A stretch of 64,000 nucleotides of DNA from Nannobrachium achirus (Eukaryota > Chordata > Actinopteri > Myctophiformes > Myctophidae): assembly GCA_963921795.1 (NCBI GenBank), contig OY997640.1, forward strand, positions 56,572,671 to 56,636,670, read 5' to 3'. The notes beneath the pieces were generated by a model. The model had not been told where the DNA came from, made no database searches, and worked only from the letters and a program-made list of their open reading frames with translations. Position numbers and translations under genes: made by a program. This document shows, piece by piece, positions 70 to 61,772 of this stretch (position 1 is the stretch's first letter; every line of letters starts with the position of its first letter).

Positions 70-251
70 ACATTTTTTTCGCAAAGCAAAGCCGTTGCAC
101 AAAAGTAGTGAAAACAGCAGAGCTACAAGCACACAATGCCTCGCGGTGCGAGGCGTTGTGTGCTTGTAGATCGGCTGTTTTCACTAGTTTAAATCATTTT
201 TAAAATGATAAATACAAAACATACAAGGTTTCCACCCGACAACGACGATAT
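70..251 (-). mobile_element. Partial non-autonomous element, family B (hairpin-cored, ATATCGTC ends)
   Basis: Reverse-orientation copy of the element seen whole at 27682-27900. The right side reads through TTTAAATCATTTTTAAAATG and a terminal repeat ending GACGATAT near 251. The left side keeps the GCAAAGCAAAGCC stretch but lacks about 20 internal bases and the outer terminal repeat. The core is the hairpin at 108-184. There is no coding capacity. Confidence 0.75.
108..184. repeat. Hairpin module copy 1
   Basis: Near-perfect palindrome starting GTGAAAACAGCAG and ending CTGTTTTCAC, with stem CACACAATGCCTCGC pairing with GCGAGGCGTTGTGTG. It belongs to the CACACAACGCC subfamily and sits in a family B element. 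Confidence 0.9.
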
Positions 252-549
252 GTATGTACAGATGTGCCATTTCACAACTTCACACGTCCTGCCATTGGCA
301 AGACAATAGATTTCCAGTGGATTGGTATCTCTGACTTCGAAGTTTAAATCTACCCGTGAAGGTGCTGCTTTTCAATGGGAATGGATTGGTTTCTTGCCAT
401 TTGTGAGTTTCTGCAAAAAATATGCTCCATTCTCCATACAAATTTGAAAAGCAAAACAGGGAAAGAAACCTGGGGGGAAAATGCATTTACAGGAAATGTG
501 TAGGAAATGAGCAGTAAAGCCTGAAGACTTGAAACGGCACATCTATGTA
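252..549. other. Single-copy spacer
   Basis: Mixed-composition DNA between two mobile elements. I see no repeat, splice pattern or coding signal. Confidence 0.5.
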
Positions 550-557
550 TTACTCCT

Positions 558-985
558 CAGGGACGTGCTGGGCCCCTGATTCAGCCCGGGAAAAAGAGTT
601 GGAGAGGCCCTCTCTATAGCACTGCTGCTGCTACTCAAAGATTTGCCATTTCAGATCATGACAAGTGACAAGCCAGTGGGCCAATTACATGAATTAGGCC
701 TATATTTCGTTGTTGTTGGGTGTCCAAACCCGTTGGTTTTCTATTTTATCATTTAAAAAATGATTTAAACGAGTGAAAACAGCCGATCTACAAGCACACA
801 ACGCCTCGAGGTGCGAGGCGTTGTGTGCTTGTAGATCTGCTGTTTTCACTACTTTTGTGCAAACAGTTTCATTTTTACTTTTGTGCAAACAGTTTAATTT
901 TTTTCCTAATGGCCCGGCCTGGACCGGCCGAGAATGAACCGGCCGTTCCGTTGTCCCGCTTTTCCCAATGGCCAGCACGTCCCTG
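558..985. mobile_element. Non-autonomous hAT element, family A, with perfect 8-bp target duplication
   Basis: The ends are inverted: CAGGGACGTGCTGG at the left and CCAGCACGTCCCTG at the right. The flanks carry an identical 8-bp direct repeat TTACTCCT at 550-557 and 986-993. An 8-bp duplication and CAGGG ends are hallmarks of the hAT superfamily. The element is 428 bp, has no transposase frame, and contains part of a family B element with hairpin copy 2. A related copy lies at 55541-56090. Confidence 0.9.
773..849. repeat. Hairpin module copy 2
   Basis: Palindrome GTGAAAACAGCCGATC to GATCTGCTGTTTTCAC with a CACACAACGCCTCG stem, located inside the hAT family A element at 558-985. Confidence 0.9.
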
Positions 986-993
986 TTACTCCT

Positions 994-2337
994 ACAGAAT
1001 TTGTCCAAACATCACACAAATCGGTACACATTATATAGATAGTCATTTGATCAAGACGAACCTGGCCGATTTTTCATATTTCATCCTGATTGGCAATAAC
1101 TTCATCATCATTAATCCCTCAACTTCCACAGATTCCACTCAACTTTAACTGAATTTCGAACATTTCTGGCCCACAATAACCTACCAGACCTGGCGGAGGC
1201 CTGTGCTCCGAGGAGCACTTTTTCTAGTTATTACTATGTCAGTTTGAAATGTATGAGTCACGAGTGAGTGACATTTGCAGATTGCATGTCGCCATAGTAA
1301 CTGGAATAAATATTGGTTTAACAGACCTTTTCACACTTGCCAACATGCTGTATAAATGTGTCCAGGTTTATTTTCTGTTGCAGTGGTTGTGTATATCAAT
1401 AGCTGACAGGAAATAAACTTGGACCCAAACCGTTCCCAACGCAATCCCGTGGACAAGGTCTATAACTTGACTTTTGTGCTAGGCAAAATACCAAATCTAT
1501 AAATGAAATAATGAAACTTTTCATTTCCTTGATTACTACATTAGTCATGTTAAATGTTAGGCTAGACTGTATTGCTTCAGGCATTTAAGGGCATAAGCCA
1601 ATAGTTCATTATGTTATTAGTAATTGCATGGTGGTTATTAAGCATGCATCCACTGCTTCTGTTTCTAGACACACATGCACGCGCACACATGCATGCACAC
1701 AGGAATGGATTTGGGAATTGCTGTCTTAAGTGATTATTGTTTTTCTCAGAATGTATATATTTATACTGTAAAGTTGATGATTCAGTGTAACAATGTGTTG
1801 ACTGCAAAGAGCAGTGCATAATGTGTATTGACGTTTTTAAGATATAGAGGTTCTATATAACAAAATATGCAAATTCATAATGAGTGCCTTTCGATAATAA
1901 GTTAACATAGTAACAGACAGAACTTGTCGTGAATTCCCATTAATGGAAAGCAAACTCCAGGATGTCCTTAAAAGTCTATCCTTAAACATAACAATACATC
2001 ACAAGGCTGAAATGATTTCCTGTCAATCTACACTGCTAACAATAAAGGCATAAAAGCCCCAAAAAATACATTTAAAAGACAAATATTGTACTGTTAAAGT
2101 ACATGGAAATAATTGTGTTGAACTCCATATACTTGCTATTGCAAAACTCATTCATGTAAGCAGGTTGGCAGAAATCTTATCCAAAACCATTAATTTTTAG
2201 GAAATGGGAAAAAGATATGTACATATATGCTAGTTATTATTTAATCACAAGCTCTTGTTAATACTTTTCATTGGTTAATATGTATTAAACCCACAGACAG
2301 ACTTAACGTAACAGACTCAAACATTTTCAGGAATAGC
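994..2337. other. Single-copy AT-rich DNA
   Basis: No mobile-element ends, splice pattern or credible coding frame seen. A short CA/GCAC-rich patch lies near 1671-1700. Confidence 0.5.
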
Positions 2338-2385
2338 AACAATAGCAGATCTACTAGCTCACAACCTGAAGCATTGCGACAGAAG
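2338..2385. repeat. Half hairpin module (left arm only), copy 3
   Basis: Left arm AATAGCAGATCTACTAGCTC is present. The right arm is missing or eroded. Confidence 0.55.
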
Positions 2386-3009
2386 AATCTCCCAGCCAGG
2401 CGATACAAAAGCCTATAATAATGGTACCCAATGCCTCCCTGCTTCAGGCTCCTTGGCATTCAGCATCAAGGGTTGCTTGCTACATATACTGTAGAGTCAT
2501 GTCCAGGGGGTGTACTTGTACATGATGGCTGGGAGGTGTATTTGTAGTCTACATCAAGCCGCCTCTATACTCTCACACTACTCAAGGAGATAGGAGGCTC
2601 CTGCCCTATGGGCCACGGAGCTCGGAAACCTTTGGTTCCCAAGGCTGCTTACTATGCAAACCACATGAGACAAATAGACCTGGGGTGCAACTCTGCCCAC
2701 ACCTACAACTTTTCAACCAAAAAAACACTCTTTGCCCCTAAGGTAAAGAATCTCTTCAGGGAAGCTATAGCCTAATCTTTCCCTCCACGTTTCATGAATA
2801 TCTGTTTATTCATTGTTAGCTATGTGCATTACTGTCTTTCCAGTGATGTGCCATTCTGTAGACTGGTTGACTACCATGAGCATGTATTGTGAGGGTCATT
2901 CATCCTTGCTAATGTCATTGCTGTTGGTCAGAAACCTTTATCTGCATATATAATCTTTTTTCTTCTCATAAACGAATGCCCTATTTTACACTTTGTTGTA
3001 TGACGATGT
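2386..3009. other. Single-copy DNA
   Basis: No coding or repeat structure recognised. Confidence 0.4.
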
Positions 3010-59840: not shown

Positions 59841-59846
59841 CAAGAT

Positions 59847-59925
59847 ATGGCCCTTAAAAGTCGGGCCATATCTGTGGCCCAACTGGACTGAAGATATGGC
59901 CCAAAGTTGGGCCATATCTGTCTGT
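59847..59925. repeat. Short inverted/direct repeat cluster of GATATGGCCC
   Basis: GATATGGCCC occurs directly at about 59847 and 59893, and inverted as GGGCCATATC at about 59864 and 59910. Confidence 0.8.
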
Positions 59926-60915
59926 ACCCGTGCTGTGTTTCATTCTCGCTGCTGTTGCTGCTATCTATGATACCAAAATGTCCCTCCGGGATCAATAAAG
60001 GTTTATCTTAAATGAATAAAGAGAAAGGCGGTGGCCTTATTTGCGCTTGCACCACCACCTTATTAAAGTGGATACAAAGCCAAACATAGTTTATCCCTGA
60101 ATCAGCTACAAGAAAGAAAAAGAAAACCATGAATACTAAGTGGACTTTTTTTTTATTCAAACCTTTGCCTTAAAGAAGATGTGCAGCCGAGGACAGACAT
60201 TTTTAGAATTTGACATATTTCTCTGTTTGATTGCATCAGACAAAATAATTATTTTCACTCAACCAACAAGCTGGGCCAATGTATTACCACAATATCTGGT
60301 CTTCTGTTTACATCCATTTTCCAGTGGAAAAACACATTAAAACTTTCTTATTTTCAAGTTGTGACGACGCTCTCATTTTTGACTGACAGGTCTGTAATAA
60401 GATTCCAAGGAACAATTTAGTGGCTCTATACTACCCACCAATTACAAGCCAGTTACCGAAAGCACAAGGACATGTCCATCTACCCTCAGTACATACTCAC
60501 GTCTGTTGCATACTCATGAATGCATGCACATTTCTTTTGACTTTGTGCTGATAAAAGAATTGCAGGAAAAAGAAACCCTGTCTGCCTTTTCCCCCTTAGC
60601 TTATGAGTGGCAGGGGTTCTTGGATTTCTGGTAATGCTGCATTCAAGACCACCTAAAGCAATAACAAGTCAGGACCAAGGGAGTGCAAGGCAGGGCAGAG
60701 ACCAAAGGGGATCAAGACTGAGACCAGAGGGGGATCGAGACTGAGACCGGGTGAGAGCGATACCAAGACAAGAAGTATTTCTAATCCTATAGAGGCCATG
60801 ATGACCAAATAGGCTAATTGTTTTTTCAAGGTACAACAGAAGTCTTTATTAATTTAAATAAAATAAAGTACAGATACATAGTGTACATACTACTACTGTA
60901 ATTGTATATAGCAAA
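59926..60915. other. Single-copy DNA
   Basis: No supported features. Confidence 0.35.
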
Positions 60916-60918
60916 TAT

Positions 60919-61016
60919 TATTTTACTGACTTGCTCTGACTGAAAGCTCGGAATTGGGTTATTAATTGGGTTATTATTTTACTGACTTGCTCTGACTGAA
61001 AGCTCGGAATTGGGTA
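60919..61016. repeat. Tandem duplication of a ~54-bp unit
   Basis: TTATTTTACTGACTTGCTCT and ACTGAAAGCTCGGAATTGGG occur twice, separated by TTATTAATTGGG. Confidence 0.9.
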
Positions 61017-61700
61017 TAATAAAGACAAAACAGTATACGGTAAAGGTCTTTTCACACGTGAAAATAGCATGAAAATAAAAAAATCTACCTCACAATATGT
61101 CAATCACGTTTGCACACTGCCGCCCGTTTCGTATTTATTTTCGGACCAGGGTTGATTTTTTTTTCGATTTTCGCATCTGTCGCCACTGAGTCCCTTGCTC
61201 TCTCTCTCTCTCTTTCCTCTCTCTCCCCCTGGCCTCCGGATTTCTAAAACGCAACGAAAAAACGCAGTGCAGTGTGCAACCAGCTTAACACCTTACAATT
61301 CTACTGACTGACACCTTGGCCTACTATAATAATGCCCTAAATTTAAAAGTATGAGTAAATAGATTACACCACTGTTACAGTATGATATCATTTTACAAAC
61401 TAGGGTGCTCCGTGGAGTTTATATCTCTGCCAGGCTATGTTGCCTATATCCATGACCATGGCCGTGTAAACTGTGGGTTGAAGCTGCCAGGAACTGAGGG
61501 AAATAGCATGTTTACAACCTACGGTTCAACTTCTTTGCATTTGTGGCACGCCCTATGGGCAGACAAAAGGGGGCTTTTGGATTAACGCCCTCAACATGTG
61601 ACTCCAATTTGAGTGATTGAATGCTGCGTTCAGGATATATCCACGGGTTTCCAACGTCCCATAGTGCATTGCTCAGACGTTGTACCGAGCTTCCGGCGCC
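61017..61700. other. Single-copy DNA with a hAT end fragment
   Basis: AGATTACACCACTG near 61360 resembles the family F right terminus. CT-rich run near 61195-61230. Confidence 0.35.
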
Positions 61701-61707
61701 GCAGCCG

Positions 61708-61772
61708 AGTGTGATTTACAAGCTCAAAACGGGCTGCATCTGCGACGCGACGTGAGCTTGTATGTCTGCTGT
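61708..61772. repeat. Degenerate hairpin module, copy 26
   Basis: GATTTACAAGCTCAAAACGG faces CGACGTGAGCTTGTATGTCT and GCTGTTAAACC. Clearly eroded but collinear with the family. Confidence 0.65.

Follow-up and report, generated by a model that had tools for sequence, protein, structure and literature searches.

The closest precedent for the sequence described here is the CMITE elements of Acropora corals (PMC2872659). As described there, CMITEs are families of miniature inverted-repeat transposable elements (MITEs) that have different terminal repeats around a conserved 75-base internal region; one new element arose by insertion of a CMITE into another sequence, and an internal role in transposition was suggested for the core (PMC2872659). 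The highly conserved domains of short interspersed elements (SINEs), such as domain V in MER6, are likewise a core common to elements with different ends and have moved between classes (PMC6887750). Angel, a high-copy DNA transposon of zebrafish, has long inverted repeats able to form a stem-loop, and two-sided substitutions in its stem have been discussed (PMC3636048). Here, we analyze a hairpin of the fish Nannobrachium achirus, a near-perfect palindrome of ~75-83 bp, starting from a 64,000-nucleotide stretch, the window (contig OY997640.1; C3:56572671-56636670 of a 1.66-Gb assembly in which the large chromosomes sampled span 49 to 90 Mb). On balance, this hairpin is probably a conserved, homologous palindromic core of non-autonomous DNA transposons that was spread by nesting and module exchange and that probably has a role in cis.

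The hairpin in the window and across the genome

A preliminary description of the window, made from its letters alone, had named 12 best hairpins and about 25 copies or half-copies in 64 kb. All 12 lie at the coordinates given there, and a search with these hairpins and one hand-made arm query gave 25 places (E ≤ 1e-3). The 12 hairpin queries alone, run at a fixed database size, gave 24 places in the window and no match in a reversed control consisting of the window and 20 reversed outside chunks. The exact 19-base arm occurs three times on the plus strand of the window and six times on the minus strand, and hairpin arms of 24-44 nt recur among the 25 longest of its 47 short-range inverted repeats. 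Two hairpins, at 56628-56729 of the window and at 2871-2964 of L025 (L-numbers denote loci or chunks sampled outside the window), carry small internal duplications of the AGATCTACAAGC arm and exceed the normal length of the family.

The hairpin is not peculiar to this window. Twenty chunks of 10 kb, picked before looking at round coordinates on 17 other chromosomes, held 95 hairpin places in 200 kb under the 12-query settings, and 19 of the 20 chunks were positive. Extrapolation gives a genome total of ~0.7 to 0.8 million places, fragments included. The exact arm AAATAGCNGATCTACAAGC has 242,092 matches genome-wide, and exact arm pairs (two facing 11-base half arms 18-48 bases apart) number 71,519; the backwards pattern gave 0 in both cases. 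The window is thus ordinary for this genome, by both the outside-chunk density and the genome-wide exact counts. At C1:469826-469952, three hairpin units are chained head to tail and overlap by their arms.

The hairpin could act as RNA, either microRNA-like or double-stranded, and benefit the elements or be co-opted by the host. Six hairpins folded as RNA (four window hairpins and two from elsewhere in the genome) are predicted to be very stable at -55 to -64 kcal/mol, far better than shuffled sequences, with z-scores of -13.5 to -15.7 for the four of the 12 window hairpins folded, and the human element MADE1 gave rise to the mir-548 family (PMC1784062). Use at the DNA level predicts identical pairing, however, and an Rfam scan returned nothing above threshold at any window hairpin, which leaves an RNA function improbable. 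The sole above-threshold Rfam match in the window is a tRNA at 5304-5375 on the minus strand.

Carriers and their nesting

The hairpin is a regular part of a unit termed B and of a TTAA-ended core present in families C, F, G and H; in the hAT elements E and M it regularly occupies the middle. The arms are homologous in B, the TTAA core, E, M and N while the flanks are unrelated, and the first four visibly share nothing but the hairpin, which upholds the earlier claim of one palindrome within elements of different ends. The 19-base arm design recurs in all contexts (212 motif matches from 29 sources, among the matches listed), and the core is more alike between families than the ends are. A single end-to-end family for all carriers was rejected. 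The refuting condition given in the preliminary description, alignment as one family, does count in part against its independent-module idea, in that C and H have a core in common, F and G a flank, and A, J and K all hold B, but B, the TTAA core, E and M stay apart. Family letters follow the preliminary description, except that E denotes the CAGTGGTTCTCAACC kind (41795-42223; also L026 and L021); J, K, L, M, N, P, Q, R and U were added here. The elements of the window are as follows.

87-247, minus strand: part of a B unit with hairpin 108-184
558-985, plus strand: hAT-type element of family A (CAGGGACGTG) with 8-bp duplication TTACTCCT, containing an internally deleted B unit and hairpin
773-849, no strand: B-type hairpin within the A element 558-985
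14706-15088, plus strand: family C element that lacks its left end; hairpin shortened (14912-14957)
21409-21814, plus strand: hAT-type element D (CAGAGGTTC), similar to E, with duplication GTTAAAAG/GTTTAAAG and half-decayed hairpin 21648-21704
26888-26957, no strand: decayed hairpin, one flank like the C/H core (by eye)
27686-27896, plus strand: B unit with no surrounding hAT recognized, ATAT on both sides, hairpin 27747-27786 mostly lost
33543-34012, plus strand: TTAA-core (G) unit with hairpins 33543-33604 and 33937-34012 at its sides and a CAGTGGTTCTG-type end between them near 33780 (by eye)
34194-34683, minus strand: F element (CAGTGGTGTAAAG), hairpin largely deleted
41795-42223, minus strand: E-type hAT element, ends approximate (by eye), with hairpin 41913-41995
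48453-48683, plus strand: B unit, left end shortened, with hairpin 48505-48581
49020-49489, minus strand: family C element (CAGGGGTCTTCAAC) around a TTAACCACTTGAACC...GGTTCAAGTGGTTAA core, with hairpin 49168-49242
51577-51715, plus strand: TTAA-core (G2) fragment with hairpin 51606-51682
52402-52887, minus strand: hAT-type element G (CAGGGGCGTC) with hairpins 52475-52550 and 52730-52805; AGTCCAC, at least 7 bp, is repeated on either side of the element
55542-56090, plus strand: second A element, left end damaged (by eye), holding hairpin 55760-55838 and B unit 55685-55941, the latter flanked on each side by ATTT
56374-56843, plus strand: hAT-type element H (TAGGGATGGGAC), duplication CAATGGAC/CAATGGAT, with hairpin 56628-56729, in which a small internal duplication is visible by eye; the left flank of the element shows homology to the C core
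61713-61773, no strand: old hairpin of family R, whose context is repeated and occurs again at L012 5880-5940

The two hairpins of the element at 52402-52887 correct the earlier account of it. The CAGTGGTTCTG end listed there is probably, by eye, the one near 33780 within the G core. Two foldbacks also lie in the window. One, at 51290-51538, has 123-nt arms that are 85% complementary and 3 nt apart, is bounded by TTAAAGGAGTAGTTCACC, and is a separate inverted-repeat element adjoining a hairpin; the other, at 38130-38277, has 72-nt arms that are 82% complementary.

hAT-like ends with 8-bp duplications surround hairpins in A, C, D, F, G, H, J, K, L (a variant of E) and M, and there are about nine kinds of outer hAT-type end. 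The duplication is exact in A (four copies), one K copy, F, M, and G in L005 and L014; it has one mismatch in C (two copies), J, the other K copy, L, H, D, and G in L020. The short terminal inverted repeats start with CAG or TAG, and by these ends and the 8-bp duplications the outer elements fit non-autonomous elements of hAT type. A loose duplication scan gave 27 rows for 134 hairpins, of which eight were discarded by eye (window 49168, L015 7215, L020 7611, two in L003, L013 7790, L024 1968 and the composite L019 9371). An exact-duplication scan gave 17 raw pairs; seven contained a hairpin, several of these by chance.

One correction to the ends named earlier concerns B (ATATCGTC). B does not add another outer end; it is itself a mobile unit of ~255 bp that starts with CGTCGTTGTCGGG, carries the hairpin regularly and has 4-bp A[AT][AT]T duplications. 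Among the 21 B copies with both ends, the 4-bp flanks are identical in 16 and within one mismatch in 19, the next 4 bp match in none, and the left flank reads A[AT][AT]T in 19. Several of these copies share a context (six in A, four in J and three in K, grouped by eye) and random re-pairing of the flanks already matches at 0.34, so the independent cases are nearer eleven, seven of them identical. The duplication fits what we take to be the Sola1 rule; a literature search found no paper stating that 4-bp rule. B was found inside the hAT families A and K, inside J (L019 and L065) and in one H-type hAT (L042), as well as outside any recognized hAT. The preliminary description had proposed a search for empty sites, and J supplied one: L006 reads TTATATC-ATAT-TTTAGCG, and the filled sites in L019 and L065 read TTATAGC-ATAT-B-ATAA-TTTAGTG (by eye). 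Much of the puzzle of the different ends is accounted for by this nesting of carriers, with B inside A, J, K and one H copy.

The second carrier is the TTAA-ended core. In C it spans TTAACCACTTGAACC to GGTTCAAGTGGTTAA, and the H element has the same left flank in decayed form. The G cores, where their ends are kept, finish with TTAACCCATTTAGGCC or TTAACCACTTTAACC and have a hairpin near each side, and the right flank of F aligns with that of G2 as far as TTAA. By these alignments, C, F, G and H carry related, partly decayed TTAA-ended cores. Since C and H share the core and F and G share the flank to TTAA, several of the apparent families reduce to one core inside different hAT ends. The hairpin of the F element of the window is largely gone. 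In the family C copies of L004, L010, L019, L027 and L024, the hairpin center, one arm or the whole hairpin has been lost, as expected of unstable palindromes.

This homology raises the question of whether all hairpin elements descend from one ancestral TTAA-ended element, with flanks diverged beyond recognition and nothing exchanged. The C-H and F-G flank homology and the shared TTAACC ends fit such descent, but the flanks of B, E and M have no such ends, their duplications are of other kinds (4-bp A[AT][AT]T and 8-bp), and the hairpin can be aligned while the flanks directly adjoining it cannot. We regard a single ancestor as very unlikely.

The ends TTAACC...GGTTAA occur in C and in some G-type loci. 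By eye, the cores read TTAACCACTT or TTAACCCATT and have no CC[C/T]T after TTAA, the motif of piggyBac-type MITEs (PMC2872659), and the core was therefore not filed as piggyBac. A search for an autonomous piggyBac partner produced 952 candidates, of which 116 were scored; no matching TTAA ends were seen at the eight loci and the short flanks of two more that were inspected. Hairpins near piggyBac candidates (L034, L035, L065 and L068) fit the genome-wide density, and a viral-contig scan gave two matches that are coding-looking by eye and unrelated. Sixteen of the 116 scored piggyBac-domain matches cluster on one strand at C2:71.35-71.84 Mb, 15 of them without stops; the cluster is perhaps a tandem domesticated gene family.

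Independent movement, retention and palindromy

The preliminary description had also offered that the palindrome moves by itself. Of the 119 places in the window and the 20 chunks, 90 are at least 36 bp long, and these comprise 34 well-kept palindromes and 56 decayed ones. A flank is shared with another copy by 33 of the 34 well-kept hairpins, and the remaining one (L025 1-67) is cut by a chunk edge and is not fully judgeable. This does not support movement of the palindrome on its own at present, and such hopping as the main cause was discarded in the absence of any lone young hairpin in the samples. Another count, 46 of 46, included loci fetched by hairpin queries, and 33 of 34 is the fair count. 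Among decayed hairpins, 37 of 56 share a flank, and half flanks are shared in 129 of 236 cases, compared with 30 of 238 for randomly chosen positions. When flanks of ±400 bp were clustered, other repeats chained 122 of 147 hairpins together; oriented half flanks were used in place of this clustering and left 39 of 147 hairpins with no assigned flank on either side. Another 20 exact-arm loci on C1 were compared with the known contexts: 15 match, L054 is C-like by eye, and L049, L051, L057 and L061 are unassigned, with a C-like end seen by eye in L051.

A related possibility is that the hairpin is, or was, a palindromic miniature transposon with a TA target that inserted into larger elements and was then carried by them. 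Human MADE1, of mariner origin and 80 bp long, moves by itself in this way with TA duplications. The size and near-perfect palindromy of the hairpin agree with such an origin, as do the TA on both of its sides in B and M (by eye) and the existence of hairpinless B junctions with a single TA. However, most other families have no TA on both sides (by eye), and solo movement with a TA duplication was not seen among the 34 well-kept hairpins. Hairpinless B junctions are also rare, numbering 76 at ≤3 mismatches (15 exact) versus 36,550 left junctions with the hairpin at ≤2 mismatches. The five hairpinless loci inspected, in four contexts and including two copies of one locus, gave no sign of a hairpinless B family. 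The precise junctions were rejected as pre-insertion sites: ACTA repeats flank the hairpin, so that slippage deletion yields the same product, and one hairpinless B (L041) lies in an A-type hAT whose other inspected copies keep the hairpin whole or in part. On both grounds slippage deletion is the likelier source, and an origin of the hairpin as its own transposon is unlikely.

Retention is also high in M. Right flanks of M number 4,929 at ≤1 mismatch, and of the 98 exact flanks in the C1 listing, 90 are joined to TTTCCAC, the exact hairpin end. A looser M pattern gave 6,703 sites; this total is not comparable with the 4,929, and the listed coordinates alone were compared.

Between family consensuses, most differences are matching changes in the two arms (AACAGC/AATAGC, ACATGC/ACAAGC and CACAGCGCGGCAC/CACAACGCCTCGC). 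Pairwise counts of consensus arms gave 50 symmetric and 27 one-sided differences, which are not independent and come from hand-typed arms, truncated for E and M. For a measure of covariation, the head of C1 supplied 53 distinct hairpins of 53 bases. Inner cells were paired in 87.5% versus 74.4% (standard deviation 0.9) in shuffles, and two-sided changes occupied 70 cells versus 21.9 (standard deviation 3.6), a value reached by none of 1000 shuffles; the shuffles ignore relatedness, so this contrast is overstated. Within families, one-sided changes from the consensus outnumber two-sided ones: 28 versus 3 in B (492 cells), 30 versus 0 in G (642 cells), 6 versus 0 in C (135 cells), 8 versus 1 in E (81 cells) and 6 versus 0 in M (96 cells). 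Copies thus decay mainly one-sidedly, and the arm symmetry was therefore probably set in the source lineages. Either selection on the sources or copying of arms during amplification would give such symmetry.

The hairpin may instead be a neutral passenger that spread with a few lucky founder elements, its palindromy reflecting mutational bias and not use. Nesting accounts for much of the spread, palindromes are in general prone to template-switch correction, and B has two complementary two-sided changes versus ~0.2 expected, which may reflect some in-place arm correction. Against a passenger, dead copies change mostly one-sidedly, yet matching changes prevail between families, and the hairpin recurs in three duplication classes. 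We consider a neutral passenger possible but doubtful.

Several observations weigh against a core spread by nesting and exchange with a role in cis, and the complementary changes in B, the re-pairing value of the B flanks and the relatedness ignored by the shuffles belong with them. Extra pair types are only mildly high, reached by 55 of 1000 shuffles, and the other eight exact M right flanks listed on C1 have no exact hairpin end. The consensuses of B, C, M and N all show an arm asymmetry at the position GC[A/C]GATC, with A in one arm and C in its partner. Over 72 readable hairpins, there were 36 AA, 26 AC and 1 CC versus 36.1, 21.2 and 3.1 expected for independent arms; being near chance, this count is weak by itself, and the weight of the asymmetry lies in its recurrence across families. 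Nesting of the core in hAT C is unproven, with no clear empty site (0 matches at 0-2 mismatches and 4 at 3), and in G the hAT ends meet a shortened core. The role in cis is argued for indirectly, from the recurrence in three duplication classes, the retained pairing and the rarity of hairpinless carriers.

Explanation and comparison with known elements

Under the favored explanation of a conserved palindromic core, carriers would have inserted into hAT elements, as shown for B and as we infer for the TTAA core. The composites would then have multiplied as hAT families, which would place the same core between different ends. The source elements would keep the palindrome for a function in cis, most likely aiding copying, either as an internal enhancer or as a hairpin or cruciform that promotes template switching during gap repair. 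An aid to copying would also let the palindrome pass between unrelated element types. Different transposases should act on hAT, TTAA and A[AT][AT]T elements, and a shared role is for that reason likelier to operate through host repair or replication than through transposase binding. A stronger proposal, to which we give little credence, is that the hairpin is a transferable cis amplification module across unrelated superfamilies. An element with any kind of ends would then become more numerous on gaining it, by a host process such as cruciform-triggered template switching or break repair, and would cease to multiply on losing it.

The usual classification of non-autonomous transposons goes by their ends, with the interiors regarded as filler. 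In the present elements, conservation across three duplication classes is highest in the interior, where paired arm changes are also seen. Should the palindrome act in cis, one DNA structure would, unusually, be serving unrelated transposases, and there would be a rule open to testing for why certain miniature elements become so numerous. Were it a passenger, repeat libraries clustered by sequence might still wrongly merge or split such families.

Among the papers listed in a literature search of openly licensed work, none concerned this hairpin and none had a palindromic core shared across superfamilies, and a search with the arm sequence returned only an unrelated paper. MADE1 moves by itself, whereas the fish hairpin showed no solo movement in the samples. 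The two are alike in that MADE1 is a short palindromic element (PMC1784062). Angel differs in that its account treats it as one family and not as a core common to families with different ends (PMC3636048). The conserved SINE domains are found in SINE retroposons and a mariner MITE, and the abstract describes no hairpin (PMC6887750). The CMITEs described have TTAA duplications and piggyBac-type ends, whereas the hairpin carriers span the 8-bp, TTAA and 4-bp A[AT][AT]T classes. The printed 60-bp CMITE core has no resemblance by eye to the hairpin, and the fish core is a near-perfect palindrome and far more numerous. The likeness to CMITEs lies in a core of similar length that is common to elements with different ends.

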